From Desulfovibrio sp. (GTDB lineage Bacteria > Desulfobacterota > Desulfovibrionia > Desulfovibrionales > Desulfovibrionaceae): 9,480 nt of DNA. The position numbers were made by a program, and so were the translations under genes. The stretch covers positions 1 through 9,480 of the forward strand of contig JALHHV010000125.1 of the NCBI GenBank assembly GCA_022837365.1, read 5' to 3'. Under the pieces are notes generated by a model. It was not told where the DNA came from and searched no databases. It saw only the letters and a program-made list of their open reading frames with translations. Below are positions 1-9,480 of this stretch, in pieces. Position 1 is the first letter of the stretch, and each line of letters opens with the position of its first letter.

Positions 1-434
1 GTGCCCACTCCGCCGGGCATGACCACGTAGGCCATGGCGTACTTGATGAACATCAGCTTGCGCACGAAGAAGTAGCGGAAGTCGCAGCGCGTCTTCACGT
101 ACTGGTTGGCGCCCTGTTCCATGGGCAGATGGATGTGCAGGCCCACGGACGTGCCGCCCGCTTCATGGGCGCCCTTGTTACCCGCTTCCATCAGGCCGGG
201 GCCGCCGCCGGTGATCACGCCGTACCCGGCCTCCACCAGTTTGCGGGCAATGGTCTCGGTTTCCATGTACAGGGGGCTGTCCGGCTTCACCCGCGCGGAC
301 CCGAAGATGGACACGCAGCGGTCCAGGTCGCTCAGCGTCTCGAATCCGTCCACCAGTTCGGCCATTATCTTGAAGAGCCGCCACGACTCCTTTATGGACA
401 GGCTGTCAATCACGTACTGCTTGGAAGAACCCAT
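1..434 (-). CDS. LOG-family (TIGR00730-type) Rossmann-fold nucleotide-binding protein, partial
   Basis: The reading frame starts at the ATG on 434-432 and is still open at base 1, so the C-terminal part lies outside the window; 144 residues are visible. Recognisable elements are FGSAR (residues 44-48), the glycine-rich nucleotide-binding loop TGGGPGLMEA (75-84), the FFVRK segment (122-126) carrying the arginine that in LOG enzymes helps catalysis, and the start of the PGGxGT motif (140 onward), whose catalytic Glu is beyond the edge. Members of this family hydrolyse nucleoside 5'-monophosphates to free base and ribose 5-phosphate (cytokinin-activating LOG, PpnN relatives); many were mislabelled lysine decarboxylases. 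The exact substrate here cannot be told. An AAGGAG site lies six bases upstream of the ATG. The gene is divergent from the beta-CASP gene. The family call is firm, the function only at family level. Confidence 0.88.
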   Translation of the reverse strand, partial: MGSSKQYVIDSLSIKESWRLFKIMAELVDGFETLSDLDRCVSIFGSARVKPDSPLYMETETIARKLVEAGYGVITGGGPGLMEAGNKGAHEAGGTSVGLHIHLPMEQGANQYVKTRCDFRYFFVRKLMFIKYAMAYVVMPGGVG

Positions 435-734
435 TGCACACTCCTTGAGTTTTGCGCACTATACGGATTCCGCGCAGCCTGCGCAACGCTCGGGAATCGT
501 TCGCGGGTTGGCGTGCCGGGGAATCATCCCCCGGCCGAGAGAACCCCCGGCCAGCGAATTCCGTGCCTTCGCGCCGTTGCGCGGCACGTGCGCCCATGCG
601 TGCCCCGCATGACCGGTACCCCCGCATGCCCGGCACATCCGAACGCACCCCTAACGTATCCAACGGCGCTTCCGGCATCTCCGCATCGTACGCCATCCGC
701 GCCCTTCACCACTCACCGGAACCAGAGGAACGGC
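435..734. other. Divergent intergenic region between LOG and beta-CASP genes
   Basis: These 300 bases separate two divergent starts. Apart from the minus-strand promoter near 458-486 I see only short hairpins: GGCACG at 583-588 pairs with CGTGCC at 599-604, overlapping ATGCG/CGCAT at 596-600 and 606-610. No convincing plus-strand -35/-10 pair for the beta-CASP gene is visible. Open frames cross the region but lack ribosome binding sites and family resemblance. Confidence 0.5.
441..486 (-). promoter_or_regulatory. Sigma-70-type promoter and ribosome binding site of the LOG-family gene
   Basis: Read on the minus strand, TTGCGC (486-481) is followed after exactly 17 bases by TATAGT (463-458). 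This would put the transcription start near 451 and leave a leader of about 17 bases containing AAGGAG (446-441), six bases before the ATG at 434. The -10 matches 5 of 6 consensus bases and the -35 4 of 6. The assignment is inferred from sequence only. Confidence 0.55.
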
Positions 735-2345
735 ATGAACATACAGTTTCTGGGAGCCGCGCAGACCGTCACCGGCTCGTGCTACATGCTGGAAGCCAAC
801 GGCGCCCGCTTCGCCATCGACTGCGGCATGCACCAGGGCAACTCCGAAATCGAAAAGCGCAACGTCGATACGGACATCTACCGCCCCGGCGACATCGCCT
901 TCTTTCTCGTCACCCACGCCCACATCGACCACACCGGCCTTCTGCCGCGCATGACGCGCGAAGGCTTCAAGGGCGACATCTACTGCACTCCGCCCACGCG
1001 CGACCTGATGGACATCATGTTGCAGGATTCCGCGCACATCCAGGAAATGGAAGCGGAGTGGGAAACCCGCAAGCAAAGCCGCTTCGGCAAGCGCAAGCCG
1101 GTGGACCCCCTGTACACCATGGCCGACGCCCAGAACGCCGTGCGCAGGCTGCGCCCCGTGGAATACAACGCCCCGTTCGAGCCCGCGCCGGGCATCCGCG
1201 TCACCTACAAGGACGCCGGGCACATCCTGGGTTCCGCGTTCCTCGAAATCGAGGTGACGGAAAACGGCACCCCCACGCGGCTGGTATTCTCCGGCGACCT
1301 TGGGCGGCCCAACCAGCTCATCGTCAACGACCCCGACCACCCCGCCCGGCCCGACTACCTGTTCATGGAGTCCACCTACGGCGACCGCGACCACAAGAAC
1401 TCCGAGAACAGCCGGGCCGAACTGGCGGAAGCCATCGCCTACAGCCACGGCCTTGGCGAAAAGGTGATCATTCCCGCCTTTGCGGTGGAGCGCACCCAGC
1501 AGGTGCTGTACACCCTGCACATGCTGTGGCAGGACGGCAAACTGCCCGCCGACATGCCGGTGTACATCGACAGCCCGCTGGCCATCCGCGCCACGGAAAT
1601 CTTCCGCAAGCACCCCCGCTTCTACGACGACGACCTGAAGGCCGCCTACGCGCGCGGCGAAGATCCGCTGAGCCTGCCCAACCTGCGCTACACCCTGAGC
1701 AGCCAGGAATCGCAGGCGCTCAACGGCATGAAGGGTCCGGCGGTGATCATTTCCGCCAGCGGCATGTGCAACGCCGGGCGCATCAAGCACCACCTGCGTC
1801 ACAACCTGTGGCGGCAGGGGGCGTCCATCGTGTTCGTGGGCTACCAGGGCGTGGGCACGCCGGGCCGCAAGATCGTGGACGGCGCCCAGACCATCCGCCT
1901 GTTCAACGAAGACGTGGCGGTGAACGCCAGGGTGTTCACCATCGGCGGGTTTTCGGCCCACGCCGGGCAAAGCCACCTGCTCGACTGGGTGGGGGCCTTC
2001 CAGCACAAGGACATGGAAGTGTTTCTGGTGCACGGCGAAGAAAAGGCCCAGACCACCCTTTCGGAAAAGCTGCACGAGCGCTACGGTCTTACCGTGCACG
2101 TGCCCACCTACATGGAAGAGGTGACGCTGAAGCCGGGCCGCACCATGCTTACCGCGCCCGACGAAAGCCGCGCCCACCCGCGCGTGGACTGGGAATTCCT
2201 GCTGGGCGACACCGAGGCCAAGGTGGCCATGCTGCGCCAGCGTCTGGCCGGGGTGGAAAAGCGCCCGTGGGTGGAGCAGGTGGACATCCGCGACCGGATG
2301 GCCGACCTGAACAGGGAAATTTTGAGTCTGCTTTCGCAGGTCTAG
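735..2345 (+). CDS. Metallo-beta-lactamase / beta-CASP RNA-processing protein (CPSF-like exonuclease family)
   Basis: This 536-residue protein is full length for bacterial YSH1/CPSF73-like beta-CASP enzymes (TTHA0252-type), which are zinc-dependent RNases. The zinc ligands are all visible: HAHIDH at residues 61-66, His163 in AGHILGS, Asp188 in SGDLG and the C-terminal His433 in LVHGE. The inserted beta-CASP domain shows motif A as Glu212 in MESTYG, the very conserved SASGMCNAGRI (340-350) and motif C as His409 in FSAHA. I chose the ATG at 735 because the protein fold starts there with MNIQFLGAAQTVTGS and an AGAGGAA site lies four to five bases upstream; the frame is open further upstream (to about 129) but that part is not conserved. 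It is monocistronic, divergent from the LOG gene and followed by a repeat-rich gap. The RNA target is unknown; in bacteria such proteins can be exo- or endoribonucleases. Cytoplasmic, with no signal peptide. Confidence 0.93.
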   Translation: MNIQFLGAAQTVTGSCYMLEANGARFAIDCGMHQGNSEIEKRNVDTDIYRPGDIAFFLVTHAHIDHTGLLPRMTREGFKGDIYCTPPTRDLMDIMLQDSAHIQEMEAEWETRKQSRFGKRKPVDPLYTMADAQNAVRRLRPVEYNAPFEPAPGIRVTYKDAGHILGSAFLEIEVTENGTPTRLVFSGDLGRPNQLIVNDPDHPARPDYLFMESTYGDRDHKNSENSRAELAEAIAYSHGLGEKVIIPAFAVERTQQVLYTLHMLWQDGKLPADMPVYIDSPLAIRATEIFRKHPRFYDDDLKAAYARGEDPLSLPNLRYTLSSQESQALNGMKGPAVIISASGMCNAGRIKHHLRHNLWRQGASIVFVGYQGVGTPGRKIVDGAQTIRLFNEDVAVNARVFTIGGFSAHAGQSHLLDWVGAFQHKDMEVFLVHGEEKAQTTLSEKLHERYGLTVHVPTYMEEVTLKPGRTMLTAPDESRAHPRVDWEFLLGDTEAKVAMLRQRLAGVEKRPWVEQVDIRDRMADLNREILSLLSQV

Positions 2346-2403
2346 GTTGGCATCCGACCCGAAGGGCGCGAAGCGTGCCCGTCAAGCGAGCTTGGGAGCT
2401 TTG

Positions 2404-2442
2404 CCCCAGCCGTAGGCGAGTCAACGAGCCGTACGGATGGGG
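2404..2442 (-). repeat. Palindromic unit C (inverted copy)
   Basis: CCCCAGCCGT (2404-2413) and ACGGATGGGG (2433-2442) pair with one mismatch. Read on the minus strand, the 39 bases match unit B (2633-2671) at 33 positions without gaps. One of the differing pairs is compensatory: C-G here is T-A in unit B at the third stem position. Confidence 0.7.
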
Positions 2443-2512
2443 ACAGCAACGATACGGGCATCGTGTGCAGAGCGGTCAAACTTCGCCTGCCATGGCTTTG
2501 CTGTCCTTGTCC
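2435..2512 (+). repeat. Long-range inverted repeat enclosing about 48 bases
   Basis: GGACAGCAA (2441-2449) is a perfect inverted match to TTGCTGTCC (2498-2506). The pairing extends outward by six more pairs (2435-2440 with 2507-2512), three of them G-U or U-G, giving a possible 15-pair RNA stem. It overlaps the right arm of unit C, so the two folds would exclude each other. Confidence 0.5.
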
Positions 2513-2524
2513 GCGCGTTGCGGT

Positions 2525-2564
2525 CCCTAGCCGTAAGGTTCGCAGGCTCACCTAACGGCTAGGG
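2525..2564 (+). repeat. Palindromic unit A
   Basis: CCCTAGCCGTAAGG (2525-2538) and CCTAACGGCTAGGG (2551-2564) form a 14-position stem with a single mismatch and a 12-base loop. No T-run follows, so it is not a typical intrinsic terminator. It shares the preceding word TGCGGTCC with unit B. Confidence 0.75.
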
Positions 2565-2632
2565 CAAGACTCGCGTTGCGCGCTCGCCTAACGGCTAAGG
2601 CTCGGTCAAATACGATAAGAGCGCGCTGCGGT

Positions 2633-2671
2633 CCTCATCCGTAAGGCTCGAAGACTCGCCAACGGCTGAGG
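2633..2671 (+). repeat. Palindromic unit B
   Basis: CCTCATCCGTAAGG (2633-2646) pairs with CCAACGGCTGAGG (2659-2671), imperfectly, around a 12-base loop. Relative to unit A the third and fourth stem pairs have changed on both sides (C-G to T-A and T-A to C-G), so pairing is preserved while sequence changed. Confidence 0.7.
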
Positions 2672-2770
2672 CATGTTCCCTCATGGCAGGCTCGTTTTCC
2701 TTGCCAACGGACAAAACTCCTAATTTTGAGACAGCACAGAGACGTCAGTTTTCAATGCTTCAGGAGATAC

Positions 2771-3292
2771 ATGCGCATCATCGCAGGTGAATACGGCGGC
2801 CGCGTGCTGAAGACGGCCGAAGGACCGGGCTACCGGCCCGCCATGGGCAAGGTGCTGCGCGTGCTGGACCTGTACGCGGGCAGCGGCAGCCTGGCCTTCG
2901 AGGCGCTGAGCCGGGGCGCGGCCGAGGCGTGGTTCGTCGAGGCCGCCCCCAAGGCGGCGGAACTCATCCGCAGGAACGCGCAAACGCTGGGCATCGCCCC
3001 GGAGCGCTGGCAGGTGGTGCAGGAAGACTGCAACAAGCTGTTGGCGCGCCGGGCGCGCACCACCTTCGACGTGGTGTTCATAGACCCGCCCTACGGCGAG
3101 GGGCAGTTGTCGCCCACGCTGCGCAACGCGGTGCGCAACGGCTGGCTGGCCGACGGGGCCATCGTGGCCGTGGAAGTGGAAGCGCGCCTGCCGCTGGACC
3201 CGGAACGGGAGAACGCGGCGCTCGTGCCCATCGTGGACCGGACCTACGGACAGACGAGGATCGTGCTATGGACGACGCGCGAGAACGGGTAG
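2771..3292 (+). CDS. rsmD: 16S rRNA (guanine(966)-N2)-methyltransferase RsmD, with internal deletion
   Basis: RsmD methylates G966 of 16S rRNA with S-adenosylmethionine during small-subunit assembly. The start MRIIAGEYGG with KTAEGPGYRP is the family's N-terminal signature; LDLYAGSG (32-39) is the SAM-binding motif, EALSRGA (44-50) follows as usual, and IDPPY (104-108) is the catalytic DPPY motif. ATG 2771 is preceded by AGGAG four bases away, and the family sequence begins there. The protein is 173 residues, shorter than usual. Between GKV (26-28) and VLDL (31-34) only two residues stand where relatives have about 16-19, including the conserved RExLFxxL helix, so a block of roughly 14-17 residues is missing in frame. 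Activity is therefore doubtful although the catalytic motif is intact. It is first in an operon: its last 25 bases overlap the start of coaD. Confidence 0.88.
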   Translation: MRIIAGEYGGRVLKTAEGPGYRPAMGKVLRVLDLYAGSGSLAFEALSRGAAEAWFVEAAPKAAELIRRNAQTLGIAPERWQVVQEDCNKLLARRARTTFDVVFIDPPYGEGQLSPTLRNAVRNGWLADGAIVAVEVEARLPLDPERENAALVPIVDRTYGQTRIVLWTTRENG

Positions 3293-3969
3293 GGCGTCTT
3301 GCCATCTACCCCGGCACCTTCGACCCGCTGACCAACGGGCACGTCAGCCTCATCCGCCGGGGCTGCCAGATCTTCGACAACGTGGTGGTGGCCGTGGCCG
3401 CCGACACGCCGAAGACGCCGCTGTTCTCGCTGGACGAGCGGGTGCGCATGGCGGAAGAGGTGTTCGCCGGGCATCCCGCCATCACCGTGGAGCCGTTCAC
3501 CGGCCTGCTGGTGGACTACGTGGAGCGGCGCGGGGCCAACGTGATCCTGCGCGGGCTGCGCGCGGTGTCCGACTTCGAGTACGAATTCCAGCTGGCTCTG
3601 ATGAACCGCAAGCTCAAGCGGCACATCCAGACCGTGTTTCTGATGACGGACTACCAGTGGCTGTACATCAGCTCCACCATCATCAAGGCGGCGGCCAGCC
3701 TGGGCGGCGACATCAAGGGCCTGGTGCCGGAAAACATCTACCGCAAGCTGCGCGAGAAGTACGGCTACCCCTATCCGCTGGGCGACGATATCGACCTTGG
3801 AATAGGGGGAATAGGGGGAACCGGTGCGGCGGGTTCCGCCTTCGGGGCGGGCCTGGGCAACGGAGGCTTCCTGCCGCGCGGGGGCACCAGCGCCGAAGGC
3901 AACGGCTGCCTTGGCCCCGATGACGAGGGCTACGGCGGGGGGACGCCGCCCATGGCCCCCACGTTTTGA
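3268..3969 (+). CDS. coaD: Phosphopantetheine adenylyltransferase CoaD, with glycine-rich C-terminal extension
   Basis: CoaD transfers AMP from ATP to 4'-phosphopantetheine, the penultimate step of coenzyme A synthesis in the cytoplasm. The nucleotidyltransferase signature is complete: YPGTFDPLTNGH (14-25, with the TxGH motif), KTPLFSLDERVRM (49-61), RGLR (95-98), EYEFQ (104-108) and ISSTIIK (134-140). The normal enzyme of about 165 residues ends near KYGYPYP (164-170). This protein is 233 residues, and the remaining 60 or so are a low-complexity tail rich in Gly, Ala and Pro. The tail begins in a perfect 9-base tandem repeat (AATAGGGGG twice, 3801-3818). The start ATG at 3268 lies inside rsmD with GAGGA seven bases upstream, so translation is probably coupled. 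The stop codon overlaps the putative miaA start. The core is certain; the tail may be disordered and dispensable. Confidence 0.93.
   Translation: MDDARERVGRLAIYPGTFDPLTNGHVSLIRRGCQIFDNVVVAVAADTPKTPLFSLDERVRMAEEVFAGHPAITVEPFTGLLVDYVERRGANVILRGLRAVSDFEYEFQLALMNRKLKRHIQTVFLMTDYQWLYISSTIIKAAASLGGDIKGLVPENIYRKLREKYGYPYPLGDDIDLGIGGIGGTGAAGSAFGAGLGNGGFLPRGGTSAEGNGCLGPDDEGYGGGTPPMAPTF
3801..3818 (+). repeat. Tandem 9-base repeat in coaD tail
   Basis: AATAGGGGG occurs twice back to back, encoding the GIGGIGG part of the CoaD extension. A run of this kind is prone to replication slippage; because the unit is nine bases long, copy changes keep the frame. Confidence 0.8.
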
Positions 3970-4901
3970 AGACTGTGGCCGTGACCGGTTCTTCTGTTTC
4001 GCATACGCCGCGTGACGCCGACGCCCCCATCCGCGTGATCTGTCTGGTCGGCCCCACGGGGGCGGGCAAGACGGCGGCGGCGCTGCATCTGGCGCGCACC
4101 TTCGGGGGCGGGGTGGTCAACGCCGATTCGCGGCAGGTCTACCGCGACTTCCCCGTCATCACCGCACAGCCCTCGCCGGAGGAACGCGCGGTGTGCCCCC
4201 ACCTGCTGTACGGCTTTCTGCCCTGCACGGAAAAGATCAGCGCGGGCGTGTGGACCGACAAGGCCACGGCGGCCATCGAGACCCTGCGCCGGGACGACCT
4301 GCGCCGGGACGACGACATCCCCCGTGTGGACCCGGCCATCGGCGCGCGGCTGGAGCGCCAATGCGACGAACTGGGCGCGCCCGCGCTGCATGCCCGGCTG
4401 GCGGCCATCGACCCGGAGTACGCCGCGCGCATCCACCCCAACGACCGGCAGCGCACCGTGCGTGCGCTGGAGGTGCACGAAGGCACCGGGCGCACCCTGT
4501 CGTGGTGGCACGCCCGGCCCGTGCCGCCGCCGCGCTTCGCGGCGCTGCGCCTGGGCATGGACATGAGCCTGGACGAGTTGACGCCCCGGCTCGACCGGCG
4601 CATCGACCTCATGCTGGAGGCGGGCGCGCTGGACGAGGCGCGCGCGGCCCGCGCCCTGTGCGACGACCCGGCCGCGCCGGGCTGGTCGGGCATCGGCTGC
4701 GCCGAACTGTACCGCCACCTTACCGGCGAACTGACCCTGGCCGAGGCCCGGCTGCTGTGGCTGCGCAACACCCGCGCCTACGCCAAGCGGCAACTGACGT
4801 GGTTCCGGGCCGACAGGCGCATCCGCTGGGTCAGGCCCGACGACCTCGACGCCATGGCCACGCTGGCCGCCGCCTTCCTGCGCGGCGAGGGCGCGGAGTA
4901 G
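3966..4901 (+). CDS. miaA: tRNA dimethylallyltransferase MiaA, lacking the conserved GGTxLY block
   Basis: MiaA adds dimethylallyl to N6 of A37 in tRNAs reading U-starting codons. Visible family elements are the P-loop GPTGAGKT (29-36), NADSRQVYRD (52-61), HPNDRQRTVRALEV (157-170), GIGCAELY (242-249) and AYAKRQLTWFR (271-281). Family members have, after the DxxI region, a segment of the form GR-PLLVGGTxLY-ALLEG-P just before DPxxRxxLE. Here that segment is absent: IETLRRDDLRRDDDIP runs straight into RVDPAIGARLE (120-130), and the replacement is coded by a perfect 15-base tandem duplication (4284-4313). The enzyme may thus be inactive. The start is uncertain: TTG at 3966 overlaps the coaD stop but has no good Shine-Dalgarno; GTG at 3975 or 3981 are alternatives, and the conserved part begins only near residue 23. 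Confidence 0.85.
   Translation: MKTVAVTGSSVSHTPRDADAPIRVICLVGPTGAGKTAAALHLARTFGGGVVNADSRQVYRDFPVITAQPSPEERAVCPHLLYGFLPCTEKISAGVWTDKATAAIETLRRDDLRRDDDIPRVDPAIGARLERQCDELGAPALHARLAAIDPEYAARIHPNDRQRTVRALEVHEGTGRTLSWWHARPVPPPRFAALRLGMDMSLDELTPRLDRRIDLMLEAGALDEARAARALCDDPAAPGWSGIGCAELYRHLTGELTLAEARLLWLRNTRAYAKRQLTWFRADRRIRWVRPDDLDAMATLAAAFLRGEGAE
4284..4313 (+). repeat. Perfect 15-base tandem duplication inside miaA
   Basis: CTGCGCCGGGACGAC is present twice in direct succession, encoding LRRDDLRRDD. It lies exactly where the conserved GGTxLY segment of MiaA is missing, so the duplication and the loss may come from one rearrangement. Confidence 0.85.
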
Positions 4902-5078: not shown

Positions 5079-5102
5079 GCGCCAAACCTCAGGGAGGCGT
5101 TC

Positions 5103-5633
5103 ATGAATGCACAGGGTACCGTGAATCCGGGCCGCAGGCCGTGGAGCCCCTACGTGGGCGGCGCGCTGAGCGGCCTTCTGGTGGTGGCGTCGGTGTGGGT
5201 GACGGGCAAGTTCTTCGGCGCGTCCACCACCTTTGTCCGTTCGGCGGGCTTCGTGGAGCGGGTGTTTTCGCCCGAGCGGGTGGCCGCGCTGGAGTACTTC
5301 GTCAAGGAAGCGCCCAAGGTGGACTGGCAGTGGATGTTCGTGGCCGGGATATTCGTGGGGGCGCTGCTGGCGTCGCTGGCCTCGGGCACCTTCCGCTGGC
5401 AGGGGGTGCCGCCGGGCTGGGCGGAGCGGTTCGGCCCGTCCAGGCTGCGGCGCGGCGTGGCGGCCTTCTGCGGCGGCGTGCTGGCCATGTTCGGCGCGCG
5501 CCTTGCCGACGGCTGACCCAGCGGACACGGGCTGAGCGGTTCGCTTCAGCTTTCGGTGAGCGGCTTCGTGGCGCTGGCCTGCTTCTTCGCGGGCGGGCTG
5601 GTGATGGCGCGCATCCTGTACCGGGGGAGGTAG
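5103..5633 (+). CDS. YeeE/YedE-family transporter half with in-frame TGA, candidate selenoprotein
   Basis: YeeE/YedE (DUF395) membrane proteins take up thiosulfate (TsuA) or related sulfur and selenium species through conserved cysteines. Start ATG 5103 has AGGGAGG five bases upstream. Hydrophobic segments lie near residues 17-36, 77-95, 117-134 and 148-170. GARLADG (131-137) leads into codon 138, TGA (5514-5516), then PSGHGLSG; relatives read G-C-T/P-S-G-H-G-I/L-S-G, so the TGA replaces the conserved cysteine. The same frame continues for 38 sense codons of membrane-like, family-like sequence to TAG at 5631-5633, two bases before the next gene. With readthrough the protein is 176 residues; without it, a 137-residue stump losing the motif and last helix. 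A hairpin suitable as bacterial SECIS follows the TGA. I infer selenocysteine at 138. The alternative is a TGC to TGA nonsense mutation or a sequencing error. Strong coupling to the next gene suggests the two halves form one transporter. Confidence 0.82.
5514..5550 (+). promoter_or_regulatory. UGA codon with SECIS-like hairpin
   Basis: Fourteen bases after the TGA (5514-5516), bases 5531-5538 pair with 5542-5550 to give eight Watson-Crick pairs with a single bulged U at 5545 and a three-base loop G-U-U (5539-5541). The loop starts 22 bases after the UGA and begins with G, which fits the known bacterial SECIS rules (small apical loop with an early G, roughly 16-37 bases from UGA). In the E. 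coli fdhF element the bulged U lies on the 5' arm; here it is on the 3' arm. The fold was derived by eye. Confidence 0.6.
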
Positions 5634-5635
5634 CC

Positions 5636-6160
5636 ATGGACCTTACGTACGGACTCGTCACGGGCATCCTGTTCGGGATATTCCTGCAACGCTCCGAAGT
5701 GCTGCGCCATGACCGGCAGTTGGGCGCGCTGCGCCTGCGCGACATGACCATCGTCAAGTTCATGCTCTCCACCGTGGTGGTGGCCATGGTGGGCGTGTAC
5801 CTGCTGGTGGACCTGGAACTGGCGAAGCTGTCGGTGAAGCCGCTGGTGCTTGGCGGCAACGTTGTCGGCGGGCTGGCCTTCGGGCTGGGCTGGGGTCTGC
5901 TGGGCTACTGCCCCGGCACCTCGCTGGGGGCGCTGGGCGAAGGCCGCTGGGACGCCCTGTGGGGCATCCTGGGCAGCCTGTGCGGCGCGGCCCTGTACGC
6001 CGAAGCCTACCCGGTCATGAAGGCCACCCTGCTGACCTGGGGCGATTTCGGCAAGATCACCCTGCCGCAGGTGCTGGGGGTGAACCACTGGGTGGTCATC
6101 GTGCCGCTGGCGTCGGGCGCGGTGCTGCTGTTCCGGTGGTTCGAGCGCAAGGGATTGTAG
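5636..6160 (+). CDS. YeeE/YedE-family transporter, second half
   Basis: This 174-residue integral membrane protein is the partner of the preceding gene. ATG 5636 follows GGAGG (5626-5630) by five bases; the SD lies within the last codons of the upstream gene, so translation is coupled. Membrane segments are visible near 3-17, 40-60, 74-92, 105-122 and 150-167. Its signature is GYCPGTSLGALGEGRWDA (90-107), the second-half counterpart of the motif with TGA in the upstream gene; Cys92 here is a normal TGC. In single-chain YeeE/YedE proteins both cysteine motifs sit in one polypeptide around the pore, so the two genes most likely give a heteromeric transporter of thiosulfate, another sulfur compound or selenium compound. 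No TusA/SirA or rhodanese gene lies beside it within the window. A hairpin 26 bases after the stop may end the operon. Confidence 0.85.
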   Translation: MDLTYGLVTGILFGIFLQRSEVLRHDRQLGALRLRDMTIVKFMLSTVVVAMVGVYLLVDLELAKLSVKPLVLGGNVVGGLAFGLGWGLLGYCPGTSLGALGEGRWDALWGILGSLCGAALYAEAYPVMKATLLTWGDFGKITLPQVLGVNHWVVIVPLASGAVLLFRWFERKGL

Positions 6161-6445: not shown

Positions 6446-6576
6446 TTTGCCAGGGCATGGCGCAGTCACGGAACACGGATCACAGGGCGGCATGCAGGGA
6501 TGCGGGCGCACCGGGCAGCCCGGTCGAGTTGGGCAGGCCGGGTACGCCGAATGCCGTCGGCAACGGAGGATGGTGG

Positions 6577-7815
6577 GTGAAGCGGAAACGCACGGCATAC
6601 GGCGGCCTGTTGGCTGCGGCGGCGCTGGCGGTGGGCGTGCTCGGCCTGGTGGCCGGGTTCGTGCCCGACGCGGGCAGCCCGTTCGTGCGCGCTCCGCTGA
6701 GCGACAGGGTGTTGCGCGCCAGGCCCGCCATCGAACGTCCCGTGGCCGAGGGTGAGCAGTGGCGCATGCGCGCCGCCGTGGCCCGGCCCGGCGATGCCCC
6801 CGCGGTGATCAACCCGGCCAGTCCGGCAGATCCTGCCAGTCCGGCAGATATTGCCAATCCGGCTGACGGGGCCGCCATGGCTGTGCTGGCCGATGGCGTG
6901 CTGGAAGAATTCTCCCCCCTTCACCCGGTGTCCCCGATCAGCTTTGTCGGGGGCGGTGTGGCCGTGTCCACCGTGGACGGGCACCGCACCGTGGACGCCA
7001 TGGCCGATGCGTCGCCCATGATCCTGCCGGGGCTGGACCCCTTGCGCGTCGATGGCGGTCGTCCGGGTGACCCCATGCAGCCCACCCTGGTTGCCGAGCC
7101 CGCCTTCTACGGCGAAGCCCTGGACCAGGCCGGGCGTCCGCTGCGCTGGACGCGCGGCGAAACGTCCCGGCTGCTGGCCAGGGAGTGCGCCGCCACCCGG
7201 CGTTCCGCCGTGGCCGGGGTGCGCCGGCCGGCGTACGGAGGCGCCTCGCGCGAGATGCTGGCGGCCGCCACGCCCGAACAGATGCTGCTGCGCGCCCGCC
7301 AGTACCGCGACATGGTGGACCGCTACGCCCGGCGCTACAACCTTTCCCCGCGCCTGGTGCTGGCCATCATGCACGCCGAGAGCGGGTTCAACCCCAACGC
7401 GGTCAGCCCGGCGCAGGCCCTGGGGCTGATGCAGATCGTGCCGGAAACCGCCGGGGGCGAGGTGCACGCCTACCTGCACGGCACGCCCGGCCAGCCGCCG
7501 CGCGACGCCCTGTTCGACCCCGGCACCAACATCCGGTACGGCACGGTGTACCTGCACCTGCTGTCCAACCGGCACTTTCCCGACATCGCCAACCCGGCCA
7601 CCCGCGAACTGTGCGTCATCGCCGCCTACAACGGCGGCCCCAACGCCCTGCTGCGCGTGTTCGACGCCGACCGCGACAAGGCCGTGGCCCAGATCAACGC
7701 CATGACCACCCAGCAGGTGTACGACAAGCTGGTGCGCCACATGCCCGCCGACGAATCACGCAAGTACGTCGACAAGGTGCTTGCCTCGCTGGAGAACTTT
7801 TCGTCCGTCCACTAA
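6577..7815 (+). CDS. MltC-like membrane-anchored lytic murein transglycosylase
   Basis: Lytic transglycosylases cleave the MurNAc-GlcNAc bond of peptidoglycan, forming 1,6-anhydroMurNAc. The catalytic domain (about residues 238-405) has the SLT signature: LAIMHAESGFNP (262-273) with the likely catalytic Glu268, ALGLMQIVPETAG (281-293), LFDPGTNIRYGTVYL (312-326) and AYNGG (350-354). It resembles E. coli MltC closely in layout, ending in ADESRKYVDKV. The N-terminus, KRKR followed by a hydrophobic stretch (9-28), is a signal anchor without a lipobox, unlike lipoprotein MltC. GTG 6577 was chosen because GGAGGA (6565-6570) lies six bases upstream and the basic/hydrophobic start follows. Residues 30-235 form an Ala/Pro-rich, low-complexity linker with no recognised domain, including three hexapeptide repeats coded at 6817-6870. 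Total 412 residues. Location: periplasmic, tethered to the inner membrane or released. Confidence 0.88.
   Translation: MKRKRTAYGGLLAAAALAVGVLGLVAGFVPDAGSPFVRAPLSDRVLRARPAIERPVAEGEQWRMRAAVARPGDAPAVINPASPADPASPADIANPADGAAMAVLADGVLEEFSPLHPVSPISFVGGGVAVSTVDGHRTVDAMADASPMILPGLDPLRVDGGRPGDPMQPTLVAEPAFYGEALDQAGRPLRWTRGETSRLLARECAATRRSAVAGVRRPAYGGASREMLAAATPEQMLLRARQYRDMVDRYARRYNLSPRLVLAIMHAESGFNPNAVSPAQALGLMQIVPETAGGEVHAYLHGTPGQPPRDALFDPGTNIRYGTVYLHLLSNRHFPDIANPATRELCVIAAYNGGPNALLRVFDADRDKAVAQINAMTTQQVYDKLVRHMPADESRKYVDKVLASLENFSSVH
6817..6870 (+). repeat. Three 18-base tandem repeats in the transglycosylase linker
   Basis: Units at 6817-6834, 6835-6852 and 6853-6870 start GCCAGTCCGGCAGAT, GCCAGTCCGGCAGAT and GCCAATCCGGCTGAC. 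They encode ASPADP, ASPADI and ANPADG. The repeat keeps the frame and lengthens a flexible periplasmic spacer. Confidence 0.8.
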
Positions 7816-8006
7816 CGGCTGTTCCCGGATAGTCCTTCAGGGGGTCGCACGGTCCGGACCCGCCTCGCGGCGTTGTGTTGCGAACCGAAAGGGCGTAATG
7901 GGGGATGGTCGCGCCGACCGGCGCGCCGCCATGCCCGGCGGGCACGGCATTACCGTCCGTGGTCGCCCCCGCGCGGGGCCAACCGTTCCGAACACAGGAG
8001 TCGTTC

Positions 8007-8516
8007 ATGAAAAGATATGCCCTCGTACTGCTGGCCCTTGCCGCCATCGTGGCGCTTGCCGGGTGCAACCAGCCCAAGTCCGGCGGCATCGCCGTGGTGA
8101 ACACCGCCCGCGTCTACCAGGAAAGCGAGGCGGGCAAGGCCGGGGTGAAGCACCTCGAAACGCTGCACGAGGAAATGCAGAACCAGCTCAACCAGATGCA
8201 GGAATCGTTGCAGCAGGACCAGAGCGACGACAACAAGCGCAAGTTCCAGGAAGCCTTCGCCGACTACCAGAAGCGCATGGGCGCCGAACAGCAGCAGGTC
8301 ATCTCCGTCCTGAACGAAAATCTGCAGAAGGTGCTGGACACCTACCGCGAAAAGAACGGCCTCGACGTCATCGTGGGCAACGACAACGTGCTCTCCGCCG
8401 GTCCCAGCGCCGACGTCACCGGCAACATCGTGGCCGAACTGAACAAGCTGAACATCACCTTCAAGCGCATGGAAGCGGAAGCCCCGGCCGCGCCGGCGGA
8501 AGCCCCCAAGCAGTAG
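8007..8516 (+). CDS. OmpH/Skp-family periplasmic chaperone-like lipoprotein
   Basis: Skp (OmpH) trimers hold unfolded outer-membrane proteins in the periplasm between coiled-coil arms. This 169-residue protein starts MKRYALVLLALAAIVALAGC, a signal peptide with lipobox LAGC and acylated Cys20; Asn at +2 would not act as an inner-membrane retention signal in the enterobacterial Lol rule. GIAVVNTARVYQES (27-40) is the first strand and helix of the Skp body, residues 41-113 are a charged, Gln/Glu/Lys-rich helical hairpin, and LDVIVGNDNVLSAGPSADVT (118-137) is the returning body segment that closes the fold. An Ala/Pro-rich tail ends the protein. ATG 8007 has AGGAG six bases upstream. Classic Skp has a cleaved, non-lipid signal, so this is a membrane-tethered variant; its partner proteins are unknown. 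A strong terminator follows. Confidence 0.85.
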   Translation: MKRYALVLLALAAIVALAGCNQPKSGGIAVVNTARVYQESEAGKAGVKHLETLHEEMQNQLNQMQESLQQDQSDDNKRKFQEAFADYQKRMGAEQQQVISVLNENLQKVLDTYREKNGLDVIVGNDNVLSAGPSADVTGNIVAELNKLNITFKRMEAEAPAAPAEAPKQ

Positions 8517-8563
8517 CGCCCGGCGCGTGCCCGCGCCGCGCATGGCCGACAGATGGCAATGAC

Positions 8564-8596
8564 AAGGACGCCCCGGCAGGCCGGGGCGTCCTTTTT
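8564..8596 (+). terminator. Intrinsic terminator of the OmpH/Skp-like gene
   Basis: AAGGACGCCCCGG (8564-8576) pairs perfectly with CCGGGGCGTCCTT (8581-8593) around the loop CAGG, giving 13 pairs, and runs into TTTTT (8592-8596). It lies 47 bases after the stop codon and separates this gene from the convergent one; read in the opposite direction the T-run is weak. Confidence 0.93.
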
Positions 8597-8636
8597 CTTC
8601 GTCCGGAACCGGGCGCGGCGGGAAGGCCGTCCCGGC

Positions 8637-9480
8637 TCATTCCTTGCGCAGCGACTGCACCAGTTCTCGGTAACGCGGGGTGTTGGACACTTCACGCAGG
8701 GCGGCTTCGATGCGTTGGGCGGTGGCGGCGTCCACGCCCCTGGCCACCATCAGGTAGCGCGGTTCGGCCGGGGGAGTGCCCGGCACCGGCCGCAGGGTCA
8801 GGGCCGCGCCCAGGTCGGGATGGGCGCGCAGCAGATGGGCGGCCTCTTCATGGCCCATGAAGGTGATGTCGTAGCTGCCGCTGGCGATGTCGCGCAGCAT
8901 CCGCGCGTTGTCCTCGCGGGTGCGGGCGGGCGAGGTGCCCGTGCGCGCCAGCGCGGAGGCCAGCCAGTCGCCGTACCAGTAGCCGTCGCCCAGCACCACG
9001 CGCAGCCCCCCGGCCAGCAGCGAATCCAGGGACCGTGCGGAGGCGGCCAGCCCCGCGTGGGTGCGGCGCACCACGATCACCGGCGGCAGCGGATCGTACA
9101 GCGGGCCAAGGAACCGGGCGTACGCCTCCCGTTCCGGCGTGCGGTAGATACCCGGCGCGCACGCGAACGGCGCACCGGCGCTGAATGTGGCGAGGATGCC
9201 GGTGAAGGTGCTGGTGACCAGGCGCGGCTTCAGCCCCGCGCGCTCCAGGACGGCCAGGGTCATTTCCACCAACGGGCCGTCCTGCCTTTCGCGGGTCACC
9301 GTGAAGAACGGCGGACGGTGGTAGACGTGGACGGCGATCTCGCGCGGCGCGGATGGCGGGGCGGCCTGCGATGCCGCGTGGCCCGCGCGCGCGGGAACCG
9401 CGCAGACGGCCAGCGCGAGCAGCAGGGCGGCAATCAGGCGGCGGGTGGGCCTGAAGGGGAAGGGCCGGGCGTGTTGCAGG
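8637..9480 (-). CDS. Periplasmic amino-acid-type substrate-binding protein (SBP family 3), 5' end outside window
   Basis: The frame ends at TGA 8639-8637 and is open through the right edge, giving at least 280 residues; no ATG with a ribosome site is seen, so the start is probably just beyond 9480 (GTG at 9299 would remove the signal and first strand). The visible N-terminal part has PTRR, then LIAALLLALAVCAVPARA, a Sec signal peptide ending in an A-x-A-like site. EIAVHVYHRPPFF begins the first lobe, followed by DGPLVEMTLAVLERAGL, a typical family-3 pattern of ligand-binding strand and helix. GSYDITFMGHEEA and YLMVARG mark the second-lobe region and return to the first. Such proteins bind amino acids or similar small solutes for an ABC importer or a sensor. 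No permease is in view and the ligand cannot be deduced; orphan Desulfovibrio-type family-3 proteins are common. Confidence 0.8.
   Translation of the reverse strand, partial: LQHARPFPFRPTRRLIAALLLALAVCAVPARAGHAASQAAPPSAPREIAVHVYHRPPFFTVTRERQDGPLVEMTLAVLERAGLKPRLVTSTFTGILATFSAGAPFACAPGIYRTPEREAYARFLGPLYDPLPPVIVVRRTHAGLAASARSLDSLLAGGLRVVLGDGYWYGDWLASALARTGTSPARTREDNARMLRDIASGSYDITFMGHEEAAHLLRAHPDLGAALTLRPVPGTPPAEPRYLMVARGVDAATAQRIEAALREVSNTPRYRELVQSLRKE

Follow-up and report, generated by a model that had tools for sequence, protein, structure and literature searches.

Does the TGA inside a YeeE/YedE-type gene of Desulfovibrio sp. end the protein, or is it read as selenocysteine (Sec)? The gene, here called gene 1, lies in a stretch of 9,480 nucleotides that was analyzed as a whole and is referred to as the window. 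It starts at ATG 5103, carries a TGA at nt 5514–5516, continues for 38 codons and ends at TAG 5631–5633. The ATG of gene 2 is at nt 5636, 2 bases past this stop. Re-reading the frame recovered what an earlier sequence-only reading had described, namely an unbroken run of 38 codons past the TGA, a TAG and tight coupling to a second half-gene. The residues around the TGA are L-A-D-G-[TGA]-P-S-G-H-G-L-S-G. We consider it probable, at roughly 0.88, that gene 1 encodes a half-length YeeE/YedE (PF04143) protein in which the TGA is read as Sec, directed by a stem-loop at nt 5531–5550. This reading is built on sequence comparison. Papers are cited by their PMC numbers. The features are as follows.

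5091–5097, + strand: putative Shine-Dalgarno-like AGGGAGG, seen in the sequence just upstream of ATG 5103
5103–5633, + strand: half-transporter gene 1, C-terminal-half type, PmpA/YedE1-like (PF04143 profile and phmmer), 176 residues if the TGA is read through
5514–5516, + strand: in-frame TGA, codon 138, predicted Sec, aligned to Cys293 of StYeeE
5531–5550, + strand: predicted bacterial SECIS stem-loop, apical loop GUU at 5539–5541, one unpaired U in the 3′ arm
5636–6160, + strand: half-transporter gene 2, N-terminal-half type, PmpB/YedE2-like (PF04143 profile and phmmer), 174 residues

The transporter gene pair

The Sulf_transp profile (PF04143, cut-off 27 bits) matches both genes. The match to gene 1 spans the TGA (88.7 bits, residues 11–166, profile positions 174–309), and gene 2 scores 55.3 bits at profile positions 16–149. 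With phmmer, gene 1 aligns to residues 232–329 of the Spirochaeta YeeE, which places residue 138 at C293. Gene 2 aligns to residues 4–119 of 6leo; its Cys92 corresponds to Cys91 of StYeeE, and its Leu23 occupies the position of Cys22. In StYeeE, Cys293 is the first relay cysteine, Cys91 the second and Cys22 the third (PMC11073785). Of the PmpAB pair, PmpA corresponds to the C-terminal half, including the Cys293 position, and PmpB to the N-terminal half, including Cys91 (PMC11582611). Zero-valent sulfur uptake by YedE1E2 requires the conserved Cys in both halves (PMC10812762).

Judged by these alignments, the pair is a split two-gene form whose layout is closest to PmpAB of Serratia and YedE1E2 of Cupriavidus pinatubonensis, which also consist of two half-genes, a C-terminal half with the Cys293 position and an N-terminal half with Cys91. 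The halves of the known systems are described as about 130 aa, whereas those of the window are 176 and 174 aa, and in the window a predicted Sec replaces the Cys of the C-terminal half. Spirochaeta thermophila TsuA/YeeE (PDB 6leo, 6lep, 8j4c, 8k1r) belongs to the same family and has two of its three relay positions in common with the pair. However, it is a single chain of 330–350 aa, in place of two genes, and has a third relay residue, Cys22, where gene 2 has Leu. The earlier reading had named TsuA-type YeeE as background, but the pair is no TsuA equivalog; gene 1 reaches 43.8 bits and gene 2 48.8 bits against the TsuA equivalog NF052577, whose cut-off is 400. The YeeE equivalog NF041049 (cut-off 645) was likewise rejected, with 30.5 bits for gene 1 and 20.7 bits for gene 2. 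No YeeD/TusA-type protein was found among the 10 window proteins scanned. AlphaFold2 models were poor, with mean pLDDT values of 60.9 and 69.6.

YedE relatives have been linked to selenium use or transport (PMC9312934, PMC11582611), which would favor a protein that carries a genuine Sec and serves as a transporter or sensor of a selenium compound, not in sulfur transport. Against this, the models for selenium YedE/FdhT give weak matches only, NF033796 (cut-off 350) with 28.0 bits for gene 1 and 26.7 bits for gene 2, and TIGR04112 (cut-off 200) with 28.6 bits for gene 2. No known selenium-metabolism protein is present either among the 10 window proteins scanned, the transporter pair aside. We regard a selenium-dedicated function as unlikely, but as the best placed of the alternatives to a Sec-containing sulfur transporter.

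The upstream neighbors, at nt 3–4901 of the window, are LOG-type and beta-CASP proteins, an RsmD-like methyltransferase, a CoaD-like transferase and MiaA; RsmD, CoaD and LOG are names that go with the Pfam matches of these genes. Downstream, nt 6574–9479 hold a lytic transglycosylase, an OmpH-like protein and solute-binding proteins. In three of the 72 related loci described below (L081, L087 and L093), an NAD(FAD)-dependent disulfide-reductase-like gene with the motif GGVAAGMSAA directly follows the transporter pair.

Codon 138 and the stem-loop behind it

Related loci were collected from best matches only, and the search pattern for the motif predetermines the residues that flank codon 138. 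A total of 74 loci were fetched. Two of them, L009 and L032, end at a contig edge before the motif, and 72 were read. The codon 138 column holds TGA in 33 of these, the window included, and TGC or TGT in 39. The comparison thus agrees with the sequence-only reading, which had placed the in-frame TGA at the conserved Cys codon of a YeeE/YedE-type gene; the column is TGA or Cys in 72 of 72 loci. Removing the Cys duplicates L017, L018 and L089 leaves 33 TGA and 36 distinct Cys loci.

The genome-contig scan gave 15 loci. Of 59 genomes, that of the window plus 58 from relatives, 40 had a match; an in-frame TGA was seen in the window's genome and in those of seven relatives. In a phylum sample, 137 of 395 genomes had a match; here the TGA is placed at codon 138 only where the locus was fetched, and elsewhere it denotes an in-frame TGA within the match. 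Within the genus, five distinct copies were readable, and all encode Cys by TGC; the same-genus genome G002 (93% complete) has no match to the gene 1 protein. A partner motif of the GYCPGT type stands beside gene 1 in all 72 loci, and its Cys codon is TGC or TGT, never TGA. Within this 72-locus sample, Sec is used in one transporter half only.

Other stops are found in frame inside the match, TAA in G103:C3 and G162:C70 and TAG in G023:C8 and G168:C13; these are more distant paralogues or fragments. Two Cys copies, L007 and L008, come from assemblies titled Acholeplasmataceae, which are perhaps mis-named or mis-binned. To our knowledge, this group is not expected to carry YeeE/YedE-type copies like these.

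The bacterial SECIS (bSECIS) model calls for a stem-loop whose loop starts with G, often then G or U, 16–37 nt from the UGA (PMC13188914). The stem-loop of the window agrees with this description, having the loop GUU at a spacing of 22 nt from the TGA. Across the 32 other TGA loci (27 distinct), 96.8% of the cells for the eight named pairs hold a standard pair, a value reached by none of 500 shuffles. Two-sided changes, such as C-G to U-A, are seen in three hairpin pairs of these loci, a number reached in 5 of 500 shuffles. For additional pair types the TGA-locus hairpin does no better than shuffles (352 of 500). The 36 distinct Cys loci have standard pairs in 68.4%, and 141 of 500 shuffles are as high. 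Because the structure was derived from the TGA loci, controls slid along those very sequences are biased in favor of the hairpin, and contrasting the TGA with the Cys loci is the fairer test.

In that contrast, at least 7 of the 8 stem pairs are kept in 32 of 33 TGA loci vs 6 of 36 Cys loci (Fisher 2e-12, indicative only because the rows are related). The sole TGA locus below this level, L100, folds in another register. The loop opens with G followed by G or U in 33 of 33 TGA loci vs 10 of 36 Cys loci. GGT, the synonymous Gly codon from which the loop takes its U, is used in 30 of 33 vs 4 of 36. In the window, 8 of 8 pairs form and the loop codon is GGT. When the 42 nt after the TGA were folded at lowest energy, five of the 33 TGA loci (L006, L083, L084, L086 and L091) gave a different structure; L006 gave the hairpin in a separate fold.

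A covariance model from which both the window and the TGA codon had been withheld matches the window at nt 5517–5558 with 62.7 bits (E 1.4e-12), and the next best match in the window has 13.5 bits. The model also picks up the corresponding motif in 35 of the 36 Cys loci, with 17.7–61 bits and E values up to 1, because it carries protein-coding conservation as well. Therefore the score alone cannot separate Sec from Cys. Two Cys loci, L094 (61.0 bits) and L090 (57.7 bits), score close to the window. L094 has TGC, and its nt 1879–1923 retain the TGA-type hairpin with 8 of 8 pairs, perhaps as a relic SECIS after a recent change from Sec to Cys. Another TGC copy, L002 of Desulfovibrio sp. A2, has a near-intact hairpin at its nt 3412–3456, in a shifted register like that of the TGA locus L095.

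Could the TGA be a nonsense mutation, or a sequencing or assembly error, in an ordinary Cys-type gene? The TGC of the five same-genus copies is one base away, and the genome is fragmented into 589 contigs. Yet the same TGA recurs at 32 other loci, the fully paired hairpin with its GGT codon is not brought by a fresh error, and the frame past the TGA, considered next, has not decayed. We judge a mutation or error to be quite improbable.

The frame past the TGA and the selenocysteine machinery

Had the TGA become a stop, decay of the 38 codons behind it might be expected, and such decay, together with relatives that all encode Cys, had been named as an outcome that would count against Sec. No decay was seen. 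In codons 139–176, 7 synonymous and no nonsynonymous changes separate the window from L002, its closest Cys relative. The comparisons with L001, L019, L020 and L021 give 6–9 synonymous and 6 nonsynonymous changes, with omega of 0.21–0.35, the counts being small and the same-genus comparisons not mutually independent. Upstream of the TGA omega is 0.14–0.26. By these substitution patterns, the frame of gene 1 past the TGA is under purifying selection.

Database entries could be taken to favor a true stop, with the 137-residue half as the functional product of a programmed truncation. When the 137-residue form was the query, 115 among the best 120 of 2288 matches were absent from the full-length list. 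All 115 are proteins of at most 140 aa whose sequences, read at the protein level, break off within the motif, directly ahead of the Sec column, though gene callers that heed stops would yield such ends regardless. The full-length query gave, among the best 120 of 4395 matches, 118 with Cys at the motif and 2 without the motif. The codons past the TGA are under purifying selection, as noted, and encode a hydrophobic segment at residues 150–168; 101 aligned rows show little or no variation in the motif residues from the codon 138 column on; and the hairpin is kept in TGA loci, not in Cys loci. A true stop is thus very improbable, with only the decoding alternative treated below rated lower. That standard annotation would give a truncated 137-residue protein, as the sequence-only reading had expected, fits at least 115 database proteins of the family that stop directly ahead of the expected Sec codon, and under-annotation of the Sec form is therefore probable. 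Three of the 115 short entries (P0122–P0236) are named 'putative effector of murein hydrolase'.

Reading of the TGA as Sec calls for selA, selB, selC and selD, and the search for them in the window's genome, a 75.5% complete assembly, succeeded in part. selA was found with 604.9 bits (cut-off 267.9) and selD with 358.8 bits (cut-off 125), the latter itself with an in-frame TGA. Four genes for formate dehydrogenase alpha (fdhA) with an in-frame TGA are present as well. selB was not found above the cut-off in this assembly, the top match being EF-Tu, and neither was tRNA-Sec (selC), for which the top candidate was a tRNA-Trp. The gap is probably due to incompleteness of the assembly, because seven of seven other same-genus genomes have selB and tRNA-Sec, the latter at 80–84 bits. 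A second match of the tRNA-Sec search, at 49 bits, is in all seven of these genomes and absent from the window's assembly. The TGA-bearing fdhA and selD genes lie on contigs C208, C355, C562 and C290 of the window's genome, G000 (loci L072–L075 and L055/L070), and the fdhA of C562 is split into several frames.

In the 59-genome search, selB was present in all seven TGA-bearing relatives. In the phylum sample it was present in 37 of 40 genomes with an in-frame TGA and in 34 of 37 without (77 of the 137 matched genomes). selB fails to separate the two groups, and its presence is therefore no positive test of Sec.

Decoding of the UGA as another amino acid, as Trp or through a suppressor, found no point in its favor and is the least credible alternative of all, given that TGA is an ordinary stop in two neighboring genes (ends at 3969, + strand, and 8637, − strand) among the nine window genes whose stops were read, that Cys stands in 39 of 39 non-TGA loci, although the search motif fixes the flanking residues, and that the genome holds Sec machinery genes and other TGA-containing selenoprotein genes. 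The Sec/Cys column, the SECIS-type hairpin, the lack of decay, selA and selD, and the other selenoprotein genes with TGA together support the earlier proposal that codon 138 would be read as Sec.

Predicted Sec and Cys versions of a proposed sulfur-relay transporter

A Sec-containing YeeE/YedE family protein is already listed, with one example accession, in two reviews, PMC13188914 of 2026 and PMC9312934 of 2022, which answers a point on which the earlier reading had professed no knowledge. The former gives the motif as GUxSG and counts several transporter subunits as predicted to contain Sec. The window gene, with GUPSG at residues 137–141, is a further member of this catalogued but little-studied kind and not a first. 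It shares the Pfam family and the motif with the catalogued protein, and is likened to it by these only; it differs in that its genus otherwise has Cys (the five distinct readable copies). The 2026 review credits PMC2398784 and PMC5029168 for the Sec form, and the name YeeE/YedE was not found in the main texts of these two papers. Sec/Cys switching, one-sided Sec and the extent of shortened entries are details not met in the reviewed passages. A search of the open-licence PMC literature on YeeE, PmpAB or sulfur transport together with selenocysteine found no experiment on Sec in transporter subunits; it brought up the two reviews, work on transporters of the Cys type and, judging from titles and abstracts, unrelated studies.

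To follow Sec and Cys through the family, a protein tree of 69 loci was made with residue 138 masked. The fewest Sec/Cys changes on it are 13 (12–13 over bootstrap trees). Six of them are forced by well-supported branches; the tree does not show the direction of the Sec/Cys changes. The window falls in a clade with the five Cys copies of its genus (support 100/99). In a DNA tree of both genes with codons 138–153 left out, the window pairs with L002 (support 99/97), a pairing that is weak in the protein tree (89/21); their DNA is 92.2% identical over 1040 bases outside these codons. At least 7 of 8 hairpin pairs are kept in four of the five same-genus Cys copies vs 2 of the 31 other Cys loci. 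Because these copies mostly keep the pairs, there is a hint that Sec was ancestral in the genus and Cys the replacement. The hint is weak, since the same-genus Cys copies share descent.

Sec is a stronger nucleophile than Cys with a lower pKa, and the selenolate is the better leaving group. A mechanism may be outlined on this basis. SelB with Sec-tRNA would read the UGA at nt 5514, directed by the hairpin, and insert Sec at residue 138. The products of genes 1 and 2 would pair into one YeeE-like transporter, in which Sec138 would replace the first relay Cys (Cys293 in StYeeE) and take the sulfane sulfur end of the substrate. The sulfur would then be passed to Cys92 of the partner (Cys91 in StYeeE). 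Binding or uptake of sulfane sulfur, or of thiosulfate, may be faster at Sec138 than at a Cys, and selenolate chemistry would suit transient binding or selenosulfide exchange. Should decoding of the UGA fail, for example at low selenium, the product would be a protein of 137 residues without the motif and the last hydrophobic segment.

A wider picture is conceivable, though we hold it tentatively and would sooner bet against it than for it. The family may be a membrane chalcogen-relay transporter whose entry position, and that position only, has repeatedly gained and lost Sec. Sec would speed sulfur import or tie it to selenium, and relic SECIS elements would mark recent replacements of Sec by Cys. 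If repeated switching did occur, sister copies within one genus would be Sec and Cys versions of a transporter with more than 90% identical DNA. Redox reactions are considered the role of most selenoprotein families in prokaryotes (PMC9312934), and Sec has been predicted in transporter subunits (PMC13188914). The window and L002, with predicted Sec and with Cys at the same relay position, would lend themselves to a direct comparison of what a transporter gains from Sec.
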